DNA from: an uncultured SAR86 cluster bacterium
Lineage (GTDB): Bacteria; Pseudomonadota; Gammaproteobacteria; Magnimaribacterales; D2472
DNA: 64,000 bases
Assembly: GCA_905181595.1 (NCBI GenBank)
Contig: CAJIYI010000001.1
Coordinates: 1,021,938-1,085,937, forward strand
Direction of reading: 5' to 3'
This document shows, one piece after another, positions 22,946-63,885 of this stretch (positions are counted from its first letter, which is position 1; the number at the start of each line of letters is the position of its first letter). The notes beneath the pieces were generated by a model. The model saw nothing but the letters and a program-made list of their open reading frames with translations, was not told the DNA's origin and searched no databases. The position numbers were made by a program, and so were the translations under genes.

Positions 22946-25430
22946 TTAAAAGTTGTATACGAGCTGAGCTCCCATTTGTCTGCCCATATTAGTGTTACCT
23001 GCATAGAACTTAGAAGCTAAGCCACTGCCACCAGGTAATGCGTAATCAGAGTAGTACCCTTGAATGTTTGATAGATCAACATCATCTGTAATATTTTTTA
23101 CAAAGAAGCTGGCATCCCAAACATCATCGGCAGATCTCCACCCAACAATGATATTAGCAAGGTACAACGCTTTGATTTTAACGTCTGAATTAATAGCACT
23201 AGTTCGCTCATCTCTCCAACTCACGTTGTATCGAGTGTATCTTTCACCGCCCCAATAAGATGGAACAGTATTATCTAAGTAGAAGTTTAATGATGACTCA
23301 GCAGCGTCACTTACTGGTGTGCCGCTAACATCTTGAGTAGCAGCTGCAAAACCAGTGTATGCAGGATTATTTGCATAACCGATAGAACCAGCAGCGTACT
23401 CACTGTCATTAGATGAATAGCTTCCACCTAAGACTGTGTTTTCATTTACAACGTATGCGTATTCAATGTCTATACCTGAAACTTCAGCATCGTTATTAGT
23501 AAAAATACCGCCTTGTACTTGAGTCACATTACCGGCGCCGGCAGCTGTGTATTCTCTAGCAGAAACGTTGTCCCATTTAGATTGGAAATTATCAATTGTG
23601 TAATCAAAGTAAGCAGCATTTATTCTTAATCTGCCATCCATGAATGTTCCTTTCATACCAATCTCAGTCATATCACTTTCTTCTTCAACAAAAGTTAATA
23701 AAGATGGATTAACAGCAATAGGAGAGATTGTGAGTCCTGGGCTTCTAAAGCCAGACTCAGTAGTTACATAAAGCAACATATCTTCATTGATGTAATGACC
23801 AATTTTAAAACTTCCTGTAGTTGAATCAACGTTAGAGTTTTGATCTGCAGCAGCTATTCTTGGAATAGTTAGACCGCCGCCTAGAGCAGCTGGCAAGAAG
23901 AGCAGTTAATGGAAGGTATAGGTTTTGCGCTCTATAACCAACGAGCTCTTGTTCTCTGAAACCAAATTGAACAAAAGTTTTATCAGTTAGATTGTATTTA
24001 AAGTTTGCAAAATAAGCCTCTGTTTTGTTGTCCAAAGGAATTTCCATACAAGTTAAAACCCAGCTCTTAGCTGCCATTGAACCTGGAGCAGCTCTTGCAG
24101 CTCTACAGGCTTGGTTTGGAGTTTTATAATCAAACCCAACGGCTGGTGTGAACATCGCAGGTGCAACTTCAGTAATACTAAAGGAGCGATCTAAATCAGC
24201 AGTTGTAAAGGTCTGAGAGTCTCTTGAGAAGAAACCAATTGTGTATTCAAGCTTGTCGCTGTCTTGATTTGAAATTCTCATTTCAACAGTCTCGATACCT
24301 GTATTAGTTCTAACTTCTTGAGGATAACCATACACATAAGCTCCTGCATAATCTCTATCAATAAGGCCCATGGCATCGTTTTGAGAGTTAGAGAATCTTA
24401 AAGCAAGTGCATGACTGCCCATATCATAATCAATCATTAGGTTATGAATCTCAGCGCTGTTATTTTGTCTTGGGTTTTGAAAATGCAAAGCTACTCCATC
24501 AGTGGCCTTTAGACCACCAGCAGGAATATCGTTGTACGTAGGTCTATTTAAGTAAGCTAACTGAGCTGCTGAACCGGCTGGTGCAAAACCAAGAGATTCA
24601 AACAAAGCTATTTGAGAAACATAACCATTGACCACTTGCTCATATGAAGGAGTTCCATTGGAACCTGCAACAGGTTGAGGGTAAATAGAATCTGTTTCAC
24701 TGTTTTGATACTTAAATCTAACACTCAGTTCATCTGAAGGCTGCCATGAAAGACTTATGCGACCTGAATCAAAACTATGATTTTCATTAACTTGAGTTCT
24801 AATGTTTCGAATTTCATTTCCATCACTTGTGTTCCTTAGACCTGCAACCCTAATTGAAAGAGTATCAGTTAAATGAAGATCGCTAGCTGCTTCAACCATT
24901 GAAGTCATGTTATCGGCCCACATTGTCTTAACGTAGCCATTTTTCTCGCCACTTCCCACTTGAGCAGATCGAGTATAAATTTGAATTGCTCCAGCTGTGC
25001 TAACAACTCCCTGCAAAGTACCTTGAGAACCTTTTAGTATTTCTACACGCTCGGTATCGTACATTTGAGAAAATACGTCTTGAGCTCTAAGAGGAACCTC
25101 ATCGATGTATCCCTGGATAGGTTGATCGTTTCCGCCATCTGGATCAAGTTTTTGACCACGCATAATAATGGTCGCCCTTCTTGGATCAATTTTAGTAAAT
25201 TCAACGCCTGAAACAACCTGAGCTAATTCACTCAAATCTCTAATCTGATAATCATCAAGAGTGCTTCCTGATACTGCGTTAACAGTCTGAGCAATGTCCT
25301 GTACATTCTCTTCTTTCTTAGTTGCTGTAACAACAACCTCTTCTAGAACTAACTCAGCATCTTGCGCATAAGAATAATTCGGGATTGCAACAAAAGTCAC
25401 AACAGTTAATAGGCTTAATAGTCTCTTCAT
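22946..25430 (-). CDS. TonB-dependent receptor, frame interrupted by an apparent 1-nt indel at ~23893-23905
   Basis: Signal peptide, VVVTATKKEENVQDIAQTVNAVSGSTLDD plug domain, C-terminal beta-barrel ending in aromatic F; two overlapping ORFs in different frames. Confidence 0.88.
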
Positions 25431-25516
25431 GGTTCCCCCCCATAATTGAAGAATGTTTTTATGAAAATATACCTGCTTTTTGCTCAAACCCCAAACTTTT
25501 TACTTAAAAGTAAATT

Positions 25517-38911: not shown

Positions 38912-38915
<4 letters not shown>

Positions 38916-41899
38916 GAAGCGGCTAATTTGAGCGCTTCCTTAACATCAACGGACACAACCCTTGAAACGCCTGCTTCCTGCATAGTGACACCCATTAAGT
39001 GATCGCTTTTTTCCATAGAAATCTTGTTATGAGTAATAAAAATAAATTGAACTCTATCCGACATTTCCTCAACCATGGCAACAAATCTAGTAGCATTTAA
39101 ATCATCTAATGGAGCATCAACTTCATCAAGCAAGCAAAAAGGTGCAGGGTTTAATTCAAACAAGGCAAATACTAATGATAATGCTGTCATTGCCTTTTCA
39201 CCTCCAGAGAGCTGAGAAATTGTTGCATTCTTTTTCCCAGGTGGCTGAGCTGTCAATGTAATGCCAGAATTGAGAGAATCGCCTTCGAGTAATTCTAAAG
39301 AAGCCTTTCCGCCACCAAATAATTTAGGGAAAATCTCCTGTATTTTAGAATTTACTGCATTAAAACTTTCGTCAAACTTTAATTTGGATTCTGCGTCTAT
39401 TTTCTTGATAGCGCCCTGCAGTTTTTCAAGGGCCTCATTTAAATCTTCTAGCTGAGCGTTTAGCTCTTCCATGCGCTGAGACTCCTCTGCAATTTCATCG
39501 GGTGCAGCTAAGTTAATAGCGCCAAGTGAAATAATCTTGGCTTGAACGCCTGCAAGGGACTGCTCAAGATTAGAAATATCCATACCCTTAAACTCTTCAG
39601 GGTTGATATCTCCTATGGCAATGCCTGCTCTTGTAAGTGCTTGCGAAGCATTATCAAGGTTAACCTCAAAGGTTCTGAAATCTAACTTTAAATTATTTGA
39701 CTGTTCCTCAAGAGCCCTAAGATCTAATGCAGCTATAGACTTCTTGTTCTCAGTTTCTCGAATAGACTCATCCACCTTAGATTGCTTTTGTCGAATGGTA
39801 TTTAATTCACCCTCAGCAGAGGCGCTTTTTTGAATTAAGATGGCTAGCTCTTGATCAGCTTCATTTTTTTTAAGCTCAGTTTGTTGAAGTAACTCTGTGA
39901 GGTTATTTTGCCTAGAAAGATACTCATCTGGTGCTGCCAAGTTAATGGATGAAAGGGCTGAAATGCTGCTTTGAATTTCTGCAAGAGAACTCTCTAGGTT
40001 CGCTAGATCAAGTGAAGCAAAGTCCGATGGATTGATTTCTGAAATTTTAACCTCAGCTTTTTCTAAAATAATAGATGCATTTTCTAGATTAACCTCAAAG
40101 GTTCTAAGATCTAGTTTTAAATTATTTTTCTGAGATTCCAGAGATCTTAACTCAATTGATGAGCCTGATTTCAACTCCTCAGATTTTCTGATCAACTCAT
40201 TAACTTCCGATTTCTTGCTTTTATAACTATCGAGACTCCCTTCTGATTCCACCTTCTTGGCTGAAAATAATACTAACTCTTTTTCAATCTGAGATTTCTT
40301 TTCTGCTGTTTGAAGAAGTGTTTCCTCGAGTCTATTTTGCCGCTGCAAATATTCATCAGTCATACTTTTAGATTGGTCAGAGGCAATCTTTAGGATGCTG
40401 GTAAGCGCTGCTTTTAACTCCAAGGCTTTAGACTTAATAGAATCACCATTTGAACCAAGATTGCCAAGAGATTCTAAAATGTTATCAAGCAAGTTCATTG
40501 CTTTTTCTTTAGGGCTTAAATTTTCTTGATTTGACTCTTTTTCAAGCGCAGCTTGATAGCTTGCTTTTGCTCTCTCTAAATCACTTAGTGACTGAGCTTC
40601 TAATTTCTCTAAATTTTGAAGGTTGGCTTCTTGTCTGGCAATATCAGTGCTGATTGAAGAAAAAGTACTCTGGGCTTCATCAAAACTTGCAGAAAGCGAA
40701 GCGTGATCATTTTTAATTTTCTCAATGGTTCCTTGATGTTTTTGAACCTCGTCTGATTTAAGTAGGATACTTGATTCAAGATCATTAATTTGAATTTCTA
40801 GTTTCTGCTTTTGCTCATTGGCTTGTAGGGCTTTAAGGATAGCAATATTTAGTTTAAGTTCATTTTCTTTTGGGTTTAATGTGTCGAATGATGACTCTTT
40901 CTCAATAGCCCTAGAATAACTTTCCTTAGCGGTTGCGAGGTCAGCTTTTGTTTGTGACTCTGTCTTGTTTAAATTTTGAATATTAGCTTCGTATCTAGCT
41001 ATGTCTGCTCCAATCGAATAAAAGTTTTTTTGCGCTATCTCAAAGGCCGATAAAACTGATGAGTGCTCAGTTCGAATTTGATCAATCGTTGATTGTTGAG
41101 TCTCGACCTCAGCTGACTTTACAGTAATTTGATTTGCCAAAGAGGATATCTGTGATGACAGCTTATCTTTTTGTGCCTTAGCGCTAAGACTATTTAAGAT
41201 AGATATATTTAACTTTAAATCCCTCTCTTCAACCTGAAATTTCTTATATTTTTCAGCAGCATTAGCCTGATTTTGCAGTCTATTTATCAATCGTTTAATT
41301 TCATCTCTGATGTCCAAGACTCTTGATAAATTTTCTTTTGTTTTTTTGATTCGCTGCTCTGTTTCTTTTCTTCGTTCTTTGTATTTTGAAATGCCAGCAG
41401 CTTCCTCTATAAAGGTTCTCATCTCCTCAGGTTTGGCGCTAACAATTTTGGATACCATCCCTTGCTCAATAATTGCATAACTTCTTGGCCCGAGACCTGT
41501 TCCTAAAAAAATGTCTTGAACATCTTTGCGTCTGCATGAGGTATTGTTAATAGAGTAGTTAGATTGTCCATCTCTGGTCATCAATCTCTTGATGGAAATT
41601 TCATTATATTTTGCGTATTCCCCACCTAATTTGCCCATTGAGTTATCAAATGATAATTCAATGCTGCATTGACCTGAGGGCTTTCTTAAATCTGAACCAT
41701 TGAAGATGACATCTGACATAGAGTCACCTCTTAAATTTTTAGCTGAAAGTTCGCCTAAAACCCATCTCACAGCATCAATGACATTTGATTTACCGCATCC
41801 ATTGGGACCAACAACAGCGACCATATTTGTGGGGAAAGATATCCTCGTGGGGTCCACGAAACTTTTGAATCCAGCCAGTTTAATGTGTTTGAGCTGCAT
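38912..41899 (-). CDS. smc: Chromosome segregation SMC protein, atypical (no recognisable hinge; duplicated arms)
   Basis: Walker A GPNGCGKSN, signature LSGGEKAMTALSLVFALF, Walker B CLLDEVDAPLDDLN; 995 aa. Confidence 0.93.
39500..40357 (-). repeat. Two tandem 143-aa repeats in the SMC C-terminal coiled-coil arm
   Basis: Residues 515-657 and 658-800: DEYLQRQNRLEETLLQT/DEYLSRQNNLTELLQQT, NNLKLDLRTFEVNLENAS/NNLKLDFRTFEVNLDNAS, SINLAAP/AINLAAP. Confidence 0.93.
40499..41218 (-). repeat. Two tandem 120-aa repeats in the SMC N-terminal coiled-coil arm
   Basis: Residues 228-347 and 348-467 align without gaps: LKLNISILNSL.../LKLNIAILKAL..., GADIARYEANIQNLNK/TDIARQEANLQNLEK, SYSRAIEKESSFDTLNPKENE/SYQAALEKESNQENLSPKEKA. 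Confidence 0.93.
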
Positions 41900-57139: not shown

Positions 57140-58114
57140 TCACTCTGAGTAAAGGTTTTTTATTGGTTGACCATTTTGAATATTCTTAATATTTTGAAAA
57201 AATAATTCGAATGCTCTGATTAGGGATTTTAGTGAGTGAGCTGAATCATGAGCCGAAATAAAGCAATTCTTAGCCGTCCAAAGCAAAGAGGAATTCTCAA
57301 GGGGCTCATTCTTTGTTGTATCCAATGCAGCCGCAGAAATTTCTTCACTATTCAATGCGTCTGCAAGGTCTGGCTCATTAATTGCAGTGCCCCGACCTAC
57401 GTTGATTAACATAGCTGAGTTATTAAGTTTTTTTAGGACGTCTGCATTAATGACGTCTCTAGTTTGAGCGCTATCGGGTAAAGCAAGTACTAAATAATCG
57501 GTTAAAGGGAGCAATTCTTCAAACTGATCCAACCCCAAAACCTCGTCAGCATATTCATCATCTACTGGATTACGCTTGATCCCAGTTACCCTCATGCCAA
57601 AAGCTTTGCCTAACTTAGCTACTTGTTTGCCAATGCCTCCATAGCCCAGAACCACCAAGGTTTTATCTGTAAGCTCACCATCTCCAGCTATTGGAGCCCA
57701 GTGCTTAGATTGTTGAAAATCAATGTGCTGATCTATTCTCTTATTCCATCTTAATATTTGCGAAAAAACATAATGGGCAATTGGAATTGCATAAACACTG
57801 CTTGCATTAGCAATTTGAATATTTTCTATTTTTAAAACAGCTTGAAGTATTGAAGAATCCATTCCAGCAAACCCACTTTGAATAAATTTCATTCGTTTAG
57901 ATAAGGTCAATAAAGCATCGTGAATTTCTGGGTGATCCCTAGCTGCAAATAAGAATTGATAGCACATAAATAAAGCATCTGATTCAGGAACAGCTTCCCA
58001 AGCTGGATCCCTGGAATCCAGAGGATTGAGTGCAATAATTTCCATTGAAGGATCAAAGGCAAGTAGCTCAGATCTGTATAACTTATTGTTATCTTCAGAT
58101 ATGACGATTCTCAT
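57140..58114 (-). CDS. D-2-hydroxyacid dehydrogenase family protein
   Basis: VLGYGGIGKQVAKLGKAFGM, LALPDSAQTRDVIN, INVGRGTAINE; true start ATG overlaps the upstream ligase stop (ATGA). Confidence 0.87.
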   Translation of the reverse strand: MRIVISEDNNKLYRSELLAFDPSMEIIALNPLDSRDPAWEAVPESDALFMCYQFLFAARDHPEIHDALLTLSKRMKFIQSGFAGMDSSILQAVLKIENIQIANASSVYAIPIAHYVFSQILRWNKRIDQHIDFQQSKHWAPIAGDGELTDKTLVVLGYGGIGKQVAKLGKAFGMRVTGIKRNPVDDEYADEVLGLDQFEELLPLTDYLVLALPDSAQTRDVINADVLKKLNNSAMLINVGRGTAINEPDLADALNSEEISAAALDTTKNEPLENSSLLWTAKNCFISAHDSAHSLKSLIRAFELFFQNIKNIQNGQPIKNLYSE

Positions 58115-59673
58115 GACCCATCCTTTAATACATATTTCATCACTTTCCCGGCAGCATTTGTGGGCAAATCTTGCGTAAACTCTATTTCTCTGGGGACTTT
58201 GTAATTTGCCATATTGTCTTTGCACCACTTTATAAGAGTATCAGCATCCAAGCTTTGACTAGGCTTTAAAACAATAAAAGCTTTGGCAACTTCTCCCATG
58301 CGATCGTCTGCAATGCCGATGACCGCTGCTTGAGAAATTGCAGGATGATCACAAAGAATATTTTCTATCTCAGCGGGGTATGCATTGAAGCCGCCCACAA
58401 TGAACATGTCTTTGCTCCTGTCTGTAATCTTGATATAGCCACGCTCATCCAGAATGCCAATGTCACCTGTATGCAGCCATCCTTCTTCATCTATAGCCTC
58501 TTTGGTGGCCTCTGGGTTATTGAAGTAGCCACTGGTAACGTTATAGCCTCTAACAAGAATTTCACCAGGATCGCCCGCTGAGGCTGGATTTCCATCAGCA
58601 TCAACACATTTCACTTCAACACCATCAATTGCACAGCCAGAAGTGGTGGCTATGGTTTCATAATCATCCTTAGGCGTACACATAGTCACAACACCTGTGC
58701 TTTCTGTAAGTCCATAGGCGGTAATCACTGTCTCAAAACCAAGCTGTTCTTTCATATCTTTAATTAATTGAACAGGGATAGAGGCTGCACCAGTGACGCC
58801 GAGACGCAAAGAAGAAATATCAACCTTTGATAGATTCTCGCTTGCCAGAATAGATTGATAAAGCGTTGGGGGTCCCGGCAGCATAGATATCTTTTTTTCG
58901 TGAATCATTTCAATAATTTTTTCTGCATCAAAAACTGCGCATGGATAAGCAGTTGCACCCTTCATAATAGAAGCTAGCCAACCAGCCTTGTACCCAAAGG
59001 TATGAAAAAATGGATTTACTATTAAGTACTTATCATCTTGATTAAGTCCTACGTAGGTAGACCAGTAATCAAATACTCTAATATTTTGGCCATGAGTAGA
59101 AATAACACCTTTAGGCTTTCCGGTGGTCCCAGAAGTAAAGATGATGTCTGCAATATCACCCTCTTCAACAAGTGGAAGATCGATAGCCAACCCAGAAACC
59201 ATTAAAGATTTTAAATTAGAGGCATTGGGAGATTCAGTCTCATCTAACGCAATCTGTTTTTGAAGATGCGGTAATGCTTCCTCTGACAAAAGACCAAAAT
59301 AATCTACACCAAGAAAATCATTAACGCTGAAAAGAATTTTTGCCTCAGAGTTATTAAGGATGTACGCAGCCTCTTTGCCCTTCATACGAGTATTGATTGG
59401 AACAATTACTGCTCCTGCTTTATGGGTGGCAATTGCTGCTAAAACCCATTCGTTCATGTTGGGAGCCCAAATTGCAATTCTATCCCCCTTATCTACACCA
59501 ATATTAATTAAATTTTTGGCTATCTCAGTTGATTGAGCGTCTAACTCAGCATAAGTAATGCTTTGTTGCTCTGTTACCAAGGCATATTTGTCTCCATACT
59601 CATGTGCCTGCAATTTAATTAATTCTGGAATGGTGAGTTTTGGCAATGTATTCAATCTAGTATCCTTGCCCAT
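58111..59673 (-). CDS. AMP-dependent acyl-CoA synthetase/ligase
   Basis: IIFTSGTTGKPKGV, YGLTESTG, GWLHTGDIG, TNAAGKVMKYVL. Confidence 0.92.
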   Translation of the reverse strand: MGKDTRLNTLPKLTIPELIKLQAHEYGDKYALVTEQQSITYAELDAQSTEIAKNLINIGVDKGDRIAIWAPNMNEWVLAAIATHKAGAVIVPINTRMKGKEAAYILNNSEAKILFSVNDFLGVDYFGLLSEEALPHLQKQIALDETESPNASNLKSLMVSGLAIDLPLVEEGDIADIIFTSGTTGKPKGVISTHGQNIRVFDYWSTYVGLNQDDKYLIVNPFFHTFGYKAGWLASIMKGATAYPCAVFDAEKIIEMIHEKKISMLPGPPTLYQSILASENLSKVDISSLRLGVTGAASIPVQLIKDMKEQLGFETVITAYGLTESTGVVTMCTPKDDYETIATTSGCAIDGVEVKCVDADGNPASAGDPGEILVRGYNVTSGYFNNPEATKEAIDEEGWLHTGDIGILDERGYIKITDRSKDMFIVGGFNAYPAEIENILCDHPAISQAAVIGIADDRMGEVAKAFIVLKPSQSLDADTLIKWCKDNMANYKVPREIEFTQDLPTNAAGKVMKYVLKDGS

Positions 59674-60107
59674 CGATAGTCATATTTATAATATTTTAAA
59701 CCAATAGATGATTCCGAGAACCTTACCCCTGGCAATGAAGAAATATCTTCATATAGAACTTTGGAGAGCTTGGTAACGTCTTCGGCAAGAATGAAAGCCA
59801 TAAGATCATGGCGCCCAATTAAGGTTGAAACAAATCTAACTTCTTTCATTTTAGATAAAGCTTTTGCTACAGAGTCTTTTGAACGCGTTTCAACATCCAA
59901 ACCAACAAATGCTACAGAAGGATTTTCCATTCTATTAATGTTATTGATAACAGAAATTTTAATGATCTTATTTTCTATTAACTTTTGAATTCTGTTGCGA
60001 ACAGTTCCCTCGGTCACACCAATTACTTTTGCCATTTGATTATTAGACATTCGAGCATCGGCACCCAAGAGTTGAATAATTTTTTTATCTGTTTGATCAA
60101 GCTTCAT
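59652..60107 (-). CDS. Lrp/AsnC-family transcriptional regulator
   Basis: LDQTDKKIIQLLGADARMSNNQMAKVIGVTEGTVRNRIQKL. Confidence 0.87.
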   Translation of the reverse strand: MKLDQTDKKIIQLLGADARMSNNQMAKVIGVTEGTVRNRIQKLIENKIIKISVINNINRMENPSVAFVGLDVETRSKDSVAKALSKMKEVRFVSTLIGRHDLMAFILAEDVTKLSKVLYEDISSLPGVRFSESSIGLKYYKYDYRWARILD

Positions 60108-60564
60108 TTGCAAAGGGAGTCCAATCAGTTTCAAACTTATAAACATTAGATGCTATCGCTGGAGAGATACTCTTTATTCCTGTTATAGAAGGCAACGTTT
60201 CATCTAAAAATACTTTTGTTTCTTGTAAGGTTTGAGTAGCGCAAAGGATTTCTATGTCCTGAATCCCGCTCACAACATTTACACTAAAAACTTCGTTTAA
60301 TTGGGATAGAATCTCAGCGACTTCCTCTAATTTTTCACCATGGACTCTTATTCCAATAGGTAGGAGATGTTCAAAGCCACACTTTTCAAAGTCTGCAATT
60401 GCAATAATCTTACAAAAGCCTCCTTCTATGATTTTTGTTAGTCTCTTGCTAACAGTTACTTCGTTAACAGATAACTGCTCAGCAATGAACTTAGCAGGAG
60501 CCCGTCCATCGCTTTCTAAAATTTGAAGGATTTTATGATCTAAATCATCTAAGGAAATTTTCAC
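60097..60564 (-). CDS. Lrp/AsnC-family transcriptional regulator
   Basis: LDDLDHKILQILESDGRAPAKFIAEQLSVNEVTVSKRLTKI. Confidence 0.87.
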   Translation of the reverse strand: MKISLDDLDHKILQILESDGRAPAKFIAEQLSVNEVTVSKRLTKIIEGGFCKIIAIADFEKCGFEHLLPIGIRVHGEKLEEVAEILSQLNEVFSVNVVSGIQDIEILCATQTLQETKVFLDETLPSITGIKSISPAIASNVYKFETDWTPFANEA

Positions 60565-60588: not shown

Positions 60589-61434
60589 TTAAAATTCTCT
60601 TTTTGCTAAATCAAGCCCAGTTGGAACATCGTCTCTGTTTACAAGAAATTGCCCGTACCATTTTCGTAATTTATGTAAGGGTCCGTCGCCATCACAAACA
60701 ACAGGATCAGGAATATAAATTTTATTTTCCCAAATTGCGACATCTTGACCGAAAGCATAATTATTAGCATCTACGTATCCTTGAATAAATGCTGCTTCAT
60801 CCTCAGCTGACATTCCTGGAACTTTTTTGACCATCACACCAAAATTAATTTGAAAGGAAGTTAATGTTAACGGGATATGAGTAACTGCCAGTCTACTTTC
60901 TACCTTATTCCCATCATGTATCGCGCTCATATAAGTGGTCATATAAGCCGGTCCTTCGTATGTTGCTTGAGAGAATAAATCTCTTCCAAGAATTGGGCTA
61001 TCAGCAGTCATTTCCTGAGTGTAAGTATGATCTTTCGCTTCATTCCAGAATCCCTCAAAAGGCGCCTGATGAACCGGACCAAAGTGACCCTTATCAGCCA
61101 TATTGTCTATAAGTTCTCTGCAGTTATTTTTAACTAGAAAGCTAGCCATGCCATAATCAGACCATTCATCCGAGTAGCATTCTTCAATTTTTTTAGGCAA
61201 AAAGTCTGGTTCTTTTTTCTCAGCATCATGCCAAACCATAACCATTTGATTGATCTCAAGGATAGGCCATTCATCTGTATCACCTAAATCTATCTTTATA
61301 GAGCCATCTTCAAGCCTTTGAACTTGGATTTTTCTGTCAAAGCCGTAAATAGTATTTGTTTCTCCAATTGGAAAATCTCTTTGATGGCCAAGCACAAACC
61401 AACCTCTTGGAAATCTATCTGGTAAATCATTCAT
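60589..61434 (-). CDS. KshA-like aromatic-ring/steroid hydroxylase catalytic subunit lacking its own Rieske cluster site
   Basis: FPRGWFVLGHQRDFPIGETNTIYGFDRKIQV start and NCRELIDNMADKGHFGPVHQ non-haem iron motif, no CxH...CxxH. Confidence 0.8.
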   Translation of the reverse strand: MNDLPDRFPRGWFVLGHQRDFPIGETNTIYGFDRKIQVQRLEDGSIKIDLGDTDEWPILEINQMVMVWHDAEKKEPDFLPKKIEECYSDEWSDYGMASFLVKNNCRELIDNMADKGHFGPVHQAPFEGFWNEAKDHTYTQEMTADSPILGRDLFSQATYEGPAYMTTYMSAIHDGNKVESRLAVTHIPLTLTSFQINFGVMVKKVPGMSAEDEAAFIQGYVDANNYAFGQDVAIWENKIYIPDPVVCDGDGPLHKLRKWYGQFLVNRDDVPTGLDLAKREF

Positions 61435-61445
61435 ACGGTCTCTCC

Positions 61446-61883
61446 TTATTTAAATCTTTGTCCATTTGGATCAGATGGGCTAGCGTTCTTATCAAACCAT
61501 GCATATATTTCCCCATCCATTTCATCAATCTCCCATGCACGAGTTAGTGCCTTCGGAGGTATTCTTTTAGCATATGGAATCTCATCACAATGACCTTCTC
61601 CGGCCCAACGCCAGGCATGAAATGGACATCTAATGCTATTACCTTCAACCTCTCCACATGCAAGTGAGGCGCCCATATGCTTACAATATAAATCTAAGCC
61701 CCTTAATACAGAGTCTTCACCACGCCACACTACTATTTGAGTTGGAAAATTATCAACCTGAAGAGCTTCTTTGGTACTAATTTGATCGCTTTGTGCAATC
61801 TTATACCACCCAGAAACCAAGTCACTTACGCTTGGATCTCTTTGCTCTGGAAGCTCAGGTGCGATTAGCTCTTGATCAGTCAA
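61446..61883 (-). CDS. Stand-alone Rieske [2Fe-2S] domain protein
   Basis: YCKHMGASLACGEVEGNSIRCPFHAWRWAGEGHCDEIPYAKRIPPKA. Confidence 0.9.
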   Translation of the reverse strand: MTDQELIAPELPEQRDPSVSDLVSGWYKIAQSDQISTKEALQVDNFPTQIVVWRGEDSVLRGLDLYCKHMGASLACGEVEGNSIRCPFHAWRWAGEGHCDEIPYAKRIPPKALTRAWEIDEMDGEIYAWFDKNASPSDPNGQRFK

Positions 61884-61999: not shown

Positions 62000-62869
62000 T
62001 CAAATAGAAGATATTATTTCTTCGGCTGCCTTTAATTGATTAATATCCTTAGAAGTTGGAACCAAAAGCACATCTGTTGCCCCAGCATCTTTGATCTCTA
62101 GTAAAAATTCTTTTAAGTCTCTTTCAGTTCCAGCTAAGCCTGCAGTCTTTGAAAGTTCAGCGGCTAAATCTTCTCCCATCCAACCTAAATATCTATTAAG
62201 GTGAATTTTAATATCTTGTCTAGAATTTTGACCCAAACCAAACCAAAAACTAGTGACAAGTCTAGGAGATTTTTTGGAATCTGCAAAAGCGTTTACGACT
62301 CTATTGAAAGAATCTTTGATTTCTTCTATGTCAGCATTGAAAGAAAAGCCAGCCAAACCGTCTGAATAATCTGCTGCCATCTCCATGGCTTTTGGTCCGA
62401 CAGCACCCGCAAGAATCTCAGGACCTTTCGCCGAAAAAAGTTCTGGCCCTAATTCTGAATGAATATCTTTAGACCAAATAGACTGCATAGTTTTTACTTT
62501 TTCAGCAAGCAATCTCCATCTCCTATGTGACCAATTAGCACCTATGGCTTCATAGTCTTCCTCTCTTCCACCTACGCCAACCCCTAAAGTAAACCGTCCT
62601 TCAGAAAGCATATCAATTGTTGCAAATTGTTTGGCGCTCAGCACAGGATCATGCATTGTGAGAACAGATATAGTTGCAATAATTTCTACCCTATTTGTCC
62701 ATGCAGCTACAGCACTTAAGGTAGAAATAAATTCAGGATTTGAAAAAAGAATTCTTTCTCCTAGTGCAATATGCGACCAAGGCCCTTGATCAATTTGTTT
62801 AGTCCATGCTTCTAAATCTTTGCGAGTTAAGCCTGGCTCCATGACCGGGAGGGTCATGCCTATTTTCAT
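62000..62869 (-). CDS. LLM-class flavin-dependent oxidoreductase
   Basis: [53 protein letters not shown]. Confidence 0.88.
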
Positions 62870-63885
62870 GATTCAGATTTCTTTTTGATTAGATCTAAAG
62901 CCACATCAACAATCATGTCTTCTTGACCGCCAACCATTTTTCTTTTTCCAAGCTCAACTAAGATTTCTCTTGTATCTAGATCATAAGTTTCAGCTGCTGA
63001 TTCTGCATGCCTTAAAAATGAAGAATAAACTCCAGCATAGCCAAGAGTGAGCGTTTCACGATCAACTCTCACTGGCCTATCTTGCAGGGGCCTTACCAGC
63101 TCTTCTGCAGCATCCATTAATTTGAATAAATCAGTTCCATGAGACCACCCCAAGCGATCAATGGCTGCAATAAAGACCTCTAAAGGTGCATTTCCAGCCC
63201 CAGCGCCCATTCCAGCTAAACTGGCATCAACACGATCAGCTCCATTCTCAACAGCAACTATTGAGTTAGCTACGCCCAAGGAGAGATTATGATGCGCATG
63301 CATGCCTGTTTGAGTTTCTGGTTTTAGTTCTTGTTTAAAAGCTTGAAATCTTTCTGCCACATCCGTCATGCTCAAAGCACCACCGGAATCCACAACATAA
63401 ACACATTCTGCTCCATAGGACTCCATTAGCTTTGCCTGGGCTGCTAAGTTGGATGGGGAGGTCATATGAGACATCATTAAAAATCCAATAGTATCCATGC
63501 CCAACTCTCTCGCAAACTCAATGTGCTGCCTAGAGACATCTGCTTCAGTGCAATGTGTTGCTACGCGAACAGACCTAACTCCTAAGTCCCAAGCCCATTT
63601 TAAATCCTCTTTAATTGCTATGCCTGGCAAAATCAAAGTAGTTAATTTTGCGTGCTGAAGATTCTCTGCAACTGCCCCAATCCATTCTTGATCAGTGTGA
63701 GCTCCAAAGCCGTAATTAAATGAAGATCCAGACAACCCATCTCCGTGAGCAACTTCAATTGCATCAACTTTAGCCTCGTCAAGAGCTTTGGCTATTTCGA
63801 CTACATGATCAAGACCATATTGATGTCGTATGGCATGCATTCCATCTCTCAAAGTTACATCTTGTATGTATATTTTTTTTGTCAT
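62866..63885 (-). CDS. 4-hydroxy-2-oxovalerate aldolase-like protein
   Basis: [50 protein letters not shown]. Confidence 0.93.

Follow-up and report, generated by a model that had tools for sequence, protein, structure and literature searches.

Rieske oxygenases by definition hold both of their metal centres in one chain, and electron delivery and catalysis are hard to separate in them. The question raised by the present locus is whether two neighbouring genes of a marine bacterium, one for a Rieske-only protein (rsk) and one for a catalytic subunit free of the cluster (cat), make up such an oxygenase divided between two chains. The DNA analysed here (the window, 64,000 nucleotides) belongs to a genome of 1.41 Mb (label G000) that is 87.6% complete and whose relatives are SAR86-cluster marine Gammaproteobacteria. 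SAR86 is an abundant surface-ocean clade for which steroid degradation has been inferred earlier (PMC4810484; PMC11582366), and the split pair bears on how this proposed degradation works (PMC11582366). The latter paper lists kshA in a few genomes with the Rieske split unmentioned, and no description of the split was found in the literature on SAR86 and Rieske proteins. When annotated by the KshA_C domain alone, cat is labelled an ordinary KshA and the split is overlooked.

The rsk-cat locus and its neighbours

The gene rsk (61446-61883, minus strand) encodes a stand-alone Rieske [2Fe-2S] protein of the KshA-oxygenase type with 145 amino acid residues; its TTG start is preceded by GGAG, and the relatives have mostly ATG or TTG at the same position. 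Downstream of it lies cat (60589-61434, minus strand), encoding a cluster-free KshA-type catalytic subunit of 281 residues. The initial annotation was right in placing the two genes side by side, but the 12 nt that it gave for the gap are in fact 11 nt from the rsk stop to the cat ATG, and the two ORFs are in different frames. On the other side of rsk is a conserved neighbour, an LLM-class (luciferase-like) flavin monooxygenase (62000-62869, minus strand; PF00296, E 4.4e-31), which adjoins rsk in every locus extending that far and is only distantly related to solved structures (best E 1.8e-10). It is followed by an HsaF-like 4-hydroxy-2-oxovalerate aldolase (62866-63885, minus strand; TIGR03217, 590 bits, above the cut-off). 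Beyond the window the operon runs on with hsaG, hsaE, hsaD, a P450, a thiolase, ipdA/B-like and hsaC-like genes (locus L049), several of which score below curated cut-offs and are named by similarity. On the cat side there are two Lrp/AsnC-family regulators (60097-60564 and 59652-60146, both minus strand; Pfam HTH_AsnC and AsnC_trans_reg), kept in most loci, and a further conserved neighbour, a FadD3-family acyl-CoA ligase (58111-59673, minus strand; NF005801, 704.9 bits, above the cut-off). The gene order HsaG-HsaF-LLM-rsk-cat-Lrp-Lrp-FadD3 is kept in most loci.

Elsewhere in the window, a TonB-dependent receptor (22946-25487, minus strand) is apparently broken into two overlapping ORFs, 23832-25487 for the plug and the first part of the barrel and 22946-23896 for the remainder, apparently by a frameshift, a pseudogene or a sequencing error. 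In addition, an SMC-type ATPase of 995 residues (38912-41899, minus strand) matches SMC_N over residues 3-979, with no match to the SMC hinge domain in Pfam at E 0.01. In the protein sequence its coiled-coil region seems to contain internal repeats, and a search of the DNA gave no direct repeat.

Anatomy of the two proteins

The profile searches proposed in the initial annotation put PF00355 in rsk and KshA_C (PF19298) in cat. The former gene had been read as a Rieske domain only with intact ligands, and indeed rsk matches PF00355 alone in the Pfam profile search (E 1.4e-20), with the cluster ligands C67-x-H69 ... C86-x2-H89 at 61617-61685 (minus strand). The CxH/CxxH pattern is present in 28 of the 29 distinct rsk proteins, and C67, H69, C86 and H89 are invariant in the rsk alignment (A2). 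The best PDB matches of rsk are KshA Rieske domains, with an E value of 2e-31 against about 1e-3 for Rieske ferredoxins (CarAc), by which an ordinary Rieske ferredoxin is ruled out. Rieske ferredoxins of the BphF/CarAc type pass electrons to an oxygenase and, as parts of three-component oxygenases, are small stand-alone Rieske proteins like rsk; the difference is that rsk is closer to the Rieske domains of oxygenases and that its partner cat has no Rieske centre. The AlphaFold2 model of rsk, built on a 20-sequence alignment, has a pLDDT of 91 and KshA structures as its top Foldseek matches, with strands at 25-31, 39-43, 50-54 and 60-64, then the cluster lobe, then strands at 119-122 and 125-130. 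As a separate observation, the rsk proteins of L024-L027, L030 and L031 (one genus; about 132-135 residues) are without the usual last Rieske strand, YAWFD being replaced with MVMLQKA or similar, and they keep the cluster ligands where these are readable.

The neighbouring gene had been described as KshA-like, with the cluster-binding lobe deleted and the iron domain kept, and this description holds in each part. PF19298 is the sole match of cat above cut-off (E 2.4e-57, 194.8 bits against a cut-off of 23.3), and no Rieske model was matched in the Pfam profile search. When aligned to KshA (4qdc; E 1.2e-43), cat residues 5-44 correspond to 25-64 and 51-276 to 118-354, leaving KshA residues 65-117, which include all four cluster ligands, without a counterpart. 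Compared with the fused sister L125, 54 residues are reduced to 7 (net 47 lost), and these make up the cluster-binding lobe exactly. The junction (61276-61296, minus strand) is cat 47-53, KIDLGDT, standing in place of the 54-residue lobe. No CxH...CxxH pair was found in the 31 cat sequences searched, so the cryptic Rieske motif that the initial annotation had considered as counter-evidence is absent from them.

The basal lobe of the former Rieske domain is retained in cat residues 1-70 (61225-61434, minus strand) as six strands, at 11-17, 26-31, 34-40, 46-49, 58-61 and 64-69 of the AlphaFold2 model (20-sequence alignment), which match the basal strands of rsk. The block-mean pLDDT is about 83-94 for residues 11-70, and the top Foldseek matches of the model are KshA structures. 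Judging from the two models, the deletion in cat follows a structural boundary, with the basal barrel kept and the cluster-binding lobe lost. The catalytic half is modelled poorly (pLDDT below 50 for residues 104-133 and 238-281), thus nothing is drawn from it here. In the sequence, the bridging Asp D114 and the iron ligands H117 and H122 (D-x2-H-x4-H; 61069-61095, minus strand) are conserved in all readable sequences among the 31, and the third mononuclear-iron ligand D231 (60742-60744, minus strand) is found in 30 of the 30 sequences that reach it. They are the equivalents of D178, H181, H186 and D304 in the KshA of Mycobacterium tuberculosis (PMC4064121).

Conservation and ancestry of the pair

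A contig scan with one genome per species found 28 independent SAR86 loci that encode cat with 77-91% identity, drawn from MAGs, single-cell genomes and the finished chromosome CP097973.1. In all 27 loci extending far enough, rsk is upstream of cat, which rules out chance; the order never varies and the interval ranges from -17 to +22 nt. The search for the adjacent pair in other genomes, suggested in the initial annotation, was productive: of the 204 SAR86-order genomes, 29 by our own table count carry the split cat as a separate ORF within the same operon. They represent five genera and two families, and the identity goes down to 53%. Both genes are under strong purifying selection, the median dN/dS being 0.045 for cat and 0.089 for rsk.

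Phylogenies built from the catalytic and the Rieske parts are congruent: in each, 100% of the bootstrap trees, as counted against the two fused groups, unite the split genes in a single clade. In both trees this clade adjoins the SAR86 fused KshA (L089, L107-L111) together with L121/L125, which come from genome G363 of another gammaproteobacterial family. As judged from these phylogenies, both halves descend from one fused KshA-type ancestor. The earlier view that the two proteins are complementary accords with their co-location, conservation and common origin. A fusion above 50% identity was not found in the 204 genomes of the order, in 369 genomes sampled from the class or in the one-genome-per-species contig scan; for the order containing the nearest fused homologue, the scan covered two genomes. 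The closest fused proteins are paralogues at 40-50% identity, and a close homologue with one continuous ORF, named in the initial annotation as the sign of an assembly or annotation error, did not appear. The nearest family within the same genomes is the SAR86 fused KshA (L089, L107-L111), with about 40% identity to cat over the catalytic domain. By similarity it is a genuine KshA (E 1e-100 to KshA in the PDB), and it is located between hsaA and kstD; unlike the split pair, it is one chain encoded in a kstD-kshA-hsaA cluster. The split and fused forms coexist in G073, G075, G077, G078, G147 and G163, with the fused copy beside kstD and hsaA (the contig of G163 stops too early for hsaA to be seen).

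The split is real, conserved and old. Since the N-terminal edge of the Rieske domain is present in both products, the simplest history would be that a fused KshA-type gene gave rise to two tandem copies that underwent reciprocal loss afterwards, whereby one copy would have lost the catalytic domain and become rsk, and the other would have lost the cluster-binding lobe alone and become cat.

A putative two-chain oxygenase and its known parallels

We consider it likely that rsk and cat together make up a Rieske non-heme iron oxygenase of KshA descent that consists of two chains and has its electrons delivered in trans, as the initial annotation had implied, the complex, its activity and its substrate being proposed from the features above. 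This reading is favoured by the complementary centres, the full ligand sets, the invariable pairing, the congruent trees and the purifying selection, as well as by the fact that rsk is of the oxygenase type and not of the Rieske-ferredoxin type. The electron route in KshA leads from the Rieske cluster in one subunit through a conserved Asp, which is D178 in the M. tuberculosis enzyme, to the iron in the adjacent subunit (PMC4064121). That cat has retained the equivalent residue, D114, despite having no Rieske centre speaks for electrons arriving from a Rieske centre in a different chain. In the proposed scheme, the two genes would be transcribed together and their products would probably assemble; rsk would be reduced by a flavoprotein reductase, a ferredoxin or both, and would dock beside cat, from where the electrons would travel through D114 to the mononuclear iron held by H117, H122 and D231, at which O2 would be activated. 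Because cat retains the basal lobe, rsk cannot take the native place of a Rieske domain without a changed quaternary structure: its own basal lobe would collide with that of cat if the latter stays put and the cluster lobe is in its native position. The collision implies either a quaternary structure unlike the standard alpha-3 ring or docking of rsk from outside.

As for the reductase, searches of G000 with Fer2, FAD_binding_6 and Pyr_redox_2 gave NqrF, one ferredoxin and a Reductase_C flavoprotein as candidates. In this 87.6% complete genome Fer2 occurs only in NqrF and the one ferredoxin, and FAD_binding_6 only in NqrF; no KshB-like reductase (FAD plus plant-type 2Fe-2S) was found in it, an absence that is provisional at this completeness. 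No partner reductase was found within the operon, and the Reductase_C-type ferredoxin reductase (G000:C1:521829), which lies outside it as does the ferredoxin, is the candidate for reducing rsk.

The PF00355 search of G000 returned four proteins, namely rsk, a full-length oxygenase (P2), a degenerate one (P3) and a putative bc1-type protein, named by its size and profile position; the same set is present in G089 (CP097973.1), a genome in a single contig. P3 (L051:1914-2930; G000:C1 about 939.9-940.9 kb) is a full-length KshA-like protein with orthologues L132-L150. Among the 22 SAR86-order genomes in which its cluster lobe is covered, the Rieske motif is degenerate in 8 (CGYSGINL..., CGYSG...CPKxG and similar, or CAFNG... 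in L146) and 14 keep CPHLG...CPFH. Three potential ligands are left in L133, L143 and L144, and fewer in L051, L137, L138, L149 and L146. Between degenerate and intact forms the lobe is 43% identical and the catalytic part 87%. Parsimony counts five changes for the ligand loss on the catalytic tree, of which well-supported branches force two, and this recurrence suggests a broader tendency among genomes of this small size. Members far apart from one another also share the altered lobe, as though it had been swapped as a unit. A match of the rsk type is present in 7 of the 8 genomes with a degenerate P3, the eighth (G068) being 63% complete; this would fit an action of rsk on P3 in trans, but since the genomes with an intact P3 carry rsk too, the co-occurrence does not discriminate. 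That rsk serves as a shared trans donor for both cat and P3 in genomes like G000 and G089 is a tentative and rather doubtful idea, for which P2 is an alternative donor to P3. If it were true, one small Rieske protein would supply several cluster-free catalytic subunits.

P2 also enters an unlikely account of the pair itself, in which the electrons of cat would come from a different Rieske donor, such as P2 within mixed trimers, and rsk would act as a general carrier or serve other proteins. The Rieske domain of P2 in G000 is intact, Rieske oxygenases do transfer electrons between subunits (PMC4064121), and the ligand loss in P3 makes some use of a Rieske centre in trans plausible. However, the rsk and cat genes invariably lie next to each other with rsk first, and they share their ancestor with each other rather than with P2. 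P2 is only about 27% identical to cat, and in the incomplete genome G058, a carrier of the pair, the PF00355 search did not find it. Still less probable is that cat is no longer an oxygenase and now acts as a substrate-binding or regulatory protein, or as an iron protein independent of Rieske centres, rsk being retained for some other purpose. Without its cluster lobe, cat does lack an internal electron source, and helix-grip (START-like) folds can bind ligands without catalysis, but every readable cat sequence has kept the iron ligands together with the bridging Asp, and within the protein dN/dS is lowest in the catalytic part (0.076, compared with 0.23 in residues 1-70). Finally, the 11-nt spacing and the different frames might suggest a normal KshA gene that only looks split, through misassembly, a frameshift or pseudogene formation. 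This can be dismissed, for the architecture recurs in the 28 loci, the finished chromosome and a deep second clade (the second family at 53% identity), the Rieske N-terminal edge occurs in both proteins so that simple frame repair yields no single KshA, and dN/dS is far below 1.

For the two-chain oxygenase, the KshA lineage and the operon content point to a steroid-type substrate. This would probably be a 3-ketosteroid or one of the ring intermediates related to it, with the hydroxylation preceding a meta-cleavage of the HsaC/D/E/F/G type. A homologue of KstD, 47% identical to SAR86 KstD, is encoded in G000, and no fused KshA was found in this genome in the search of the 204 order genomes (G000 being 87.6% complete), so that the split pair is, by sequence comparison, the closest KshA-lineage enzyme within this genome. 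No HsaA-like protein was found among its PF08028 (Acyl-CoA_dh_2) matches at the same completeness, and the LLM flavoprotein next to rsk is a candidate for the missing HsaA-type hydroxylation step. Where split and fused forms coexist, the pair may hydroxylate a position other than 9-alpha, because the fused KshA there adjoins kstD and hsaA.

Among known systems, KshA (PF19298; PDB 2zyl, 4qck, 4qdc, 4qdf) is the closest solved relative of both halves in sequence and fold. It shares with cat the KshA_C domain, the 2-His-1-carboxylate iron ligands and the bridging Asp, whereas its Rieske centre is in the same chain and its reductase is KshB; in SAR86 there are two chains. The initial annotation had stated that both centres normally lie in one chain, which is correct as a rule, yet rare exceptions are known in NdmC (PMC4408171) and the Micromonas chlorophyllide a oxygenase (PMC9615114), and these are the two known parallels for the split. 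In the 7-methylxanthine N7-demethylase NdmC/NdmD/NdmE, NdmC is without a Rieske cluster and the Rieske domain is on the reductase NdmD (PMC4408171). NdmC and cat are thus alike as catalytic non-heme iron subunits whose Rieske centre is on another protein, but the Rieske domain of NdmD is fused to the reductase and the GST-like NdmE is required, whereas rsk is stand-alone with PF00355 alone, a scan of the ten nearest genes gave none of the GST-like kind, and the SAR86 pair is of the KshA lineage. The chlorophyllide a oxygenase of Micromonas pusilla (MpCAO) consists of two chains, makes its product in vitro with the foreign reductase VanB, and is suggested to be a trimer of dimers (PMC9615114); it is a precedent for a two-chain enzyme that works. 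Its Rieske-only and mononuclear-iron-only chains are complementary as in the SAR86 pair, although it belongs to a eukaryotic alga and to a different oxygenase family. The SAR86 split is an event independent of both. As a natural bacterial pair from which the cluster lobe has been cut out cleanly, with the basal lobe and the bridging Asp kept, it would allow the concentration, mutants and redox potential of rsk to be varied independently of cat. What sets it apart from NdmC/NdmD and MpCAO is its other lineage and a stand-alone Rieske protein encoded in a bacterial operon.
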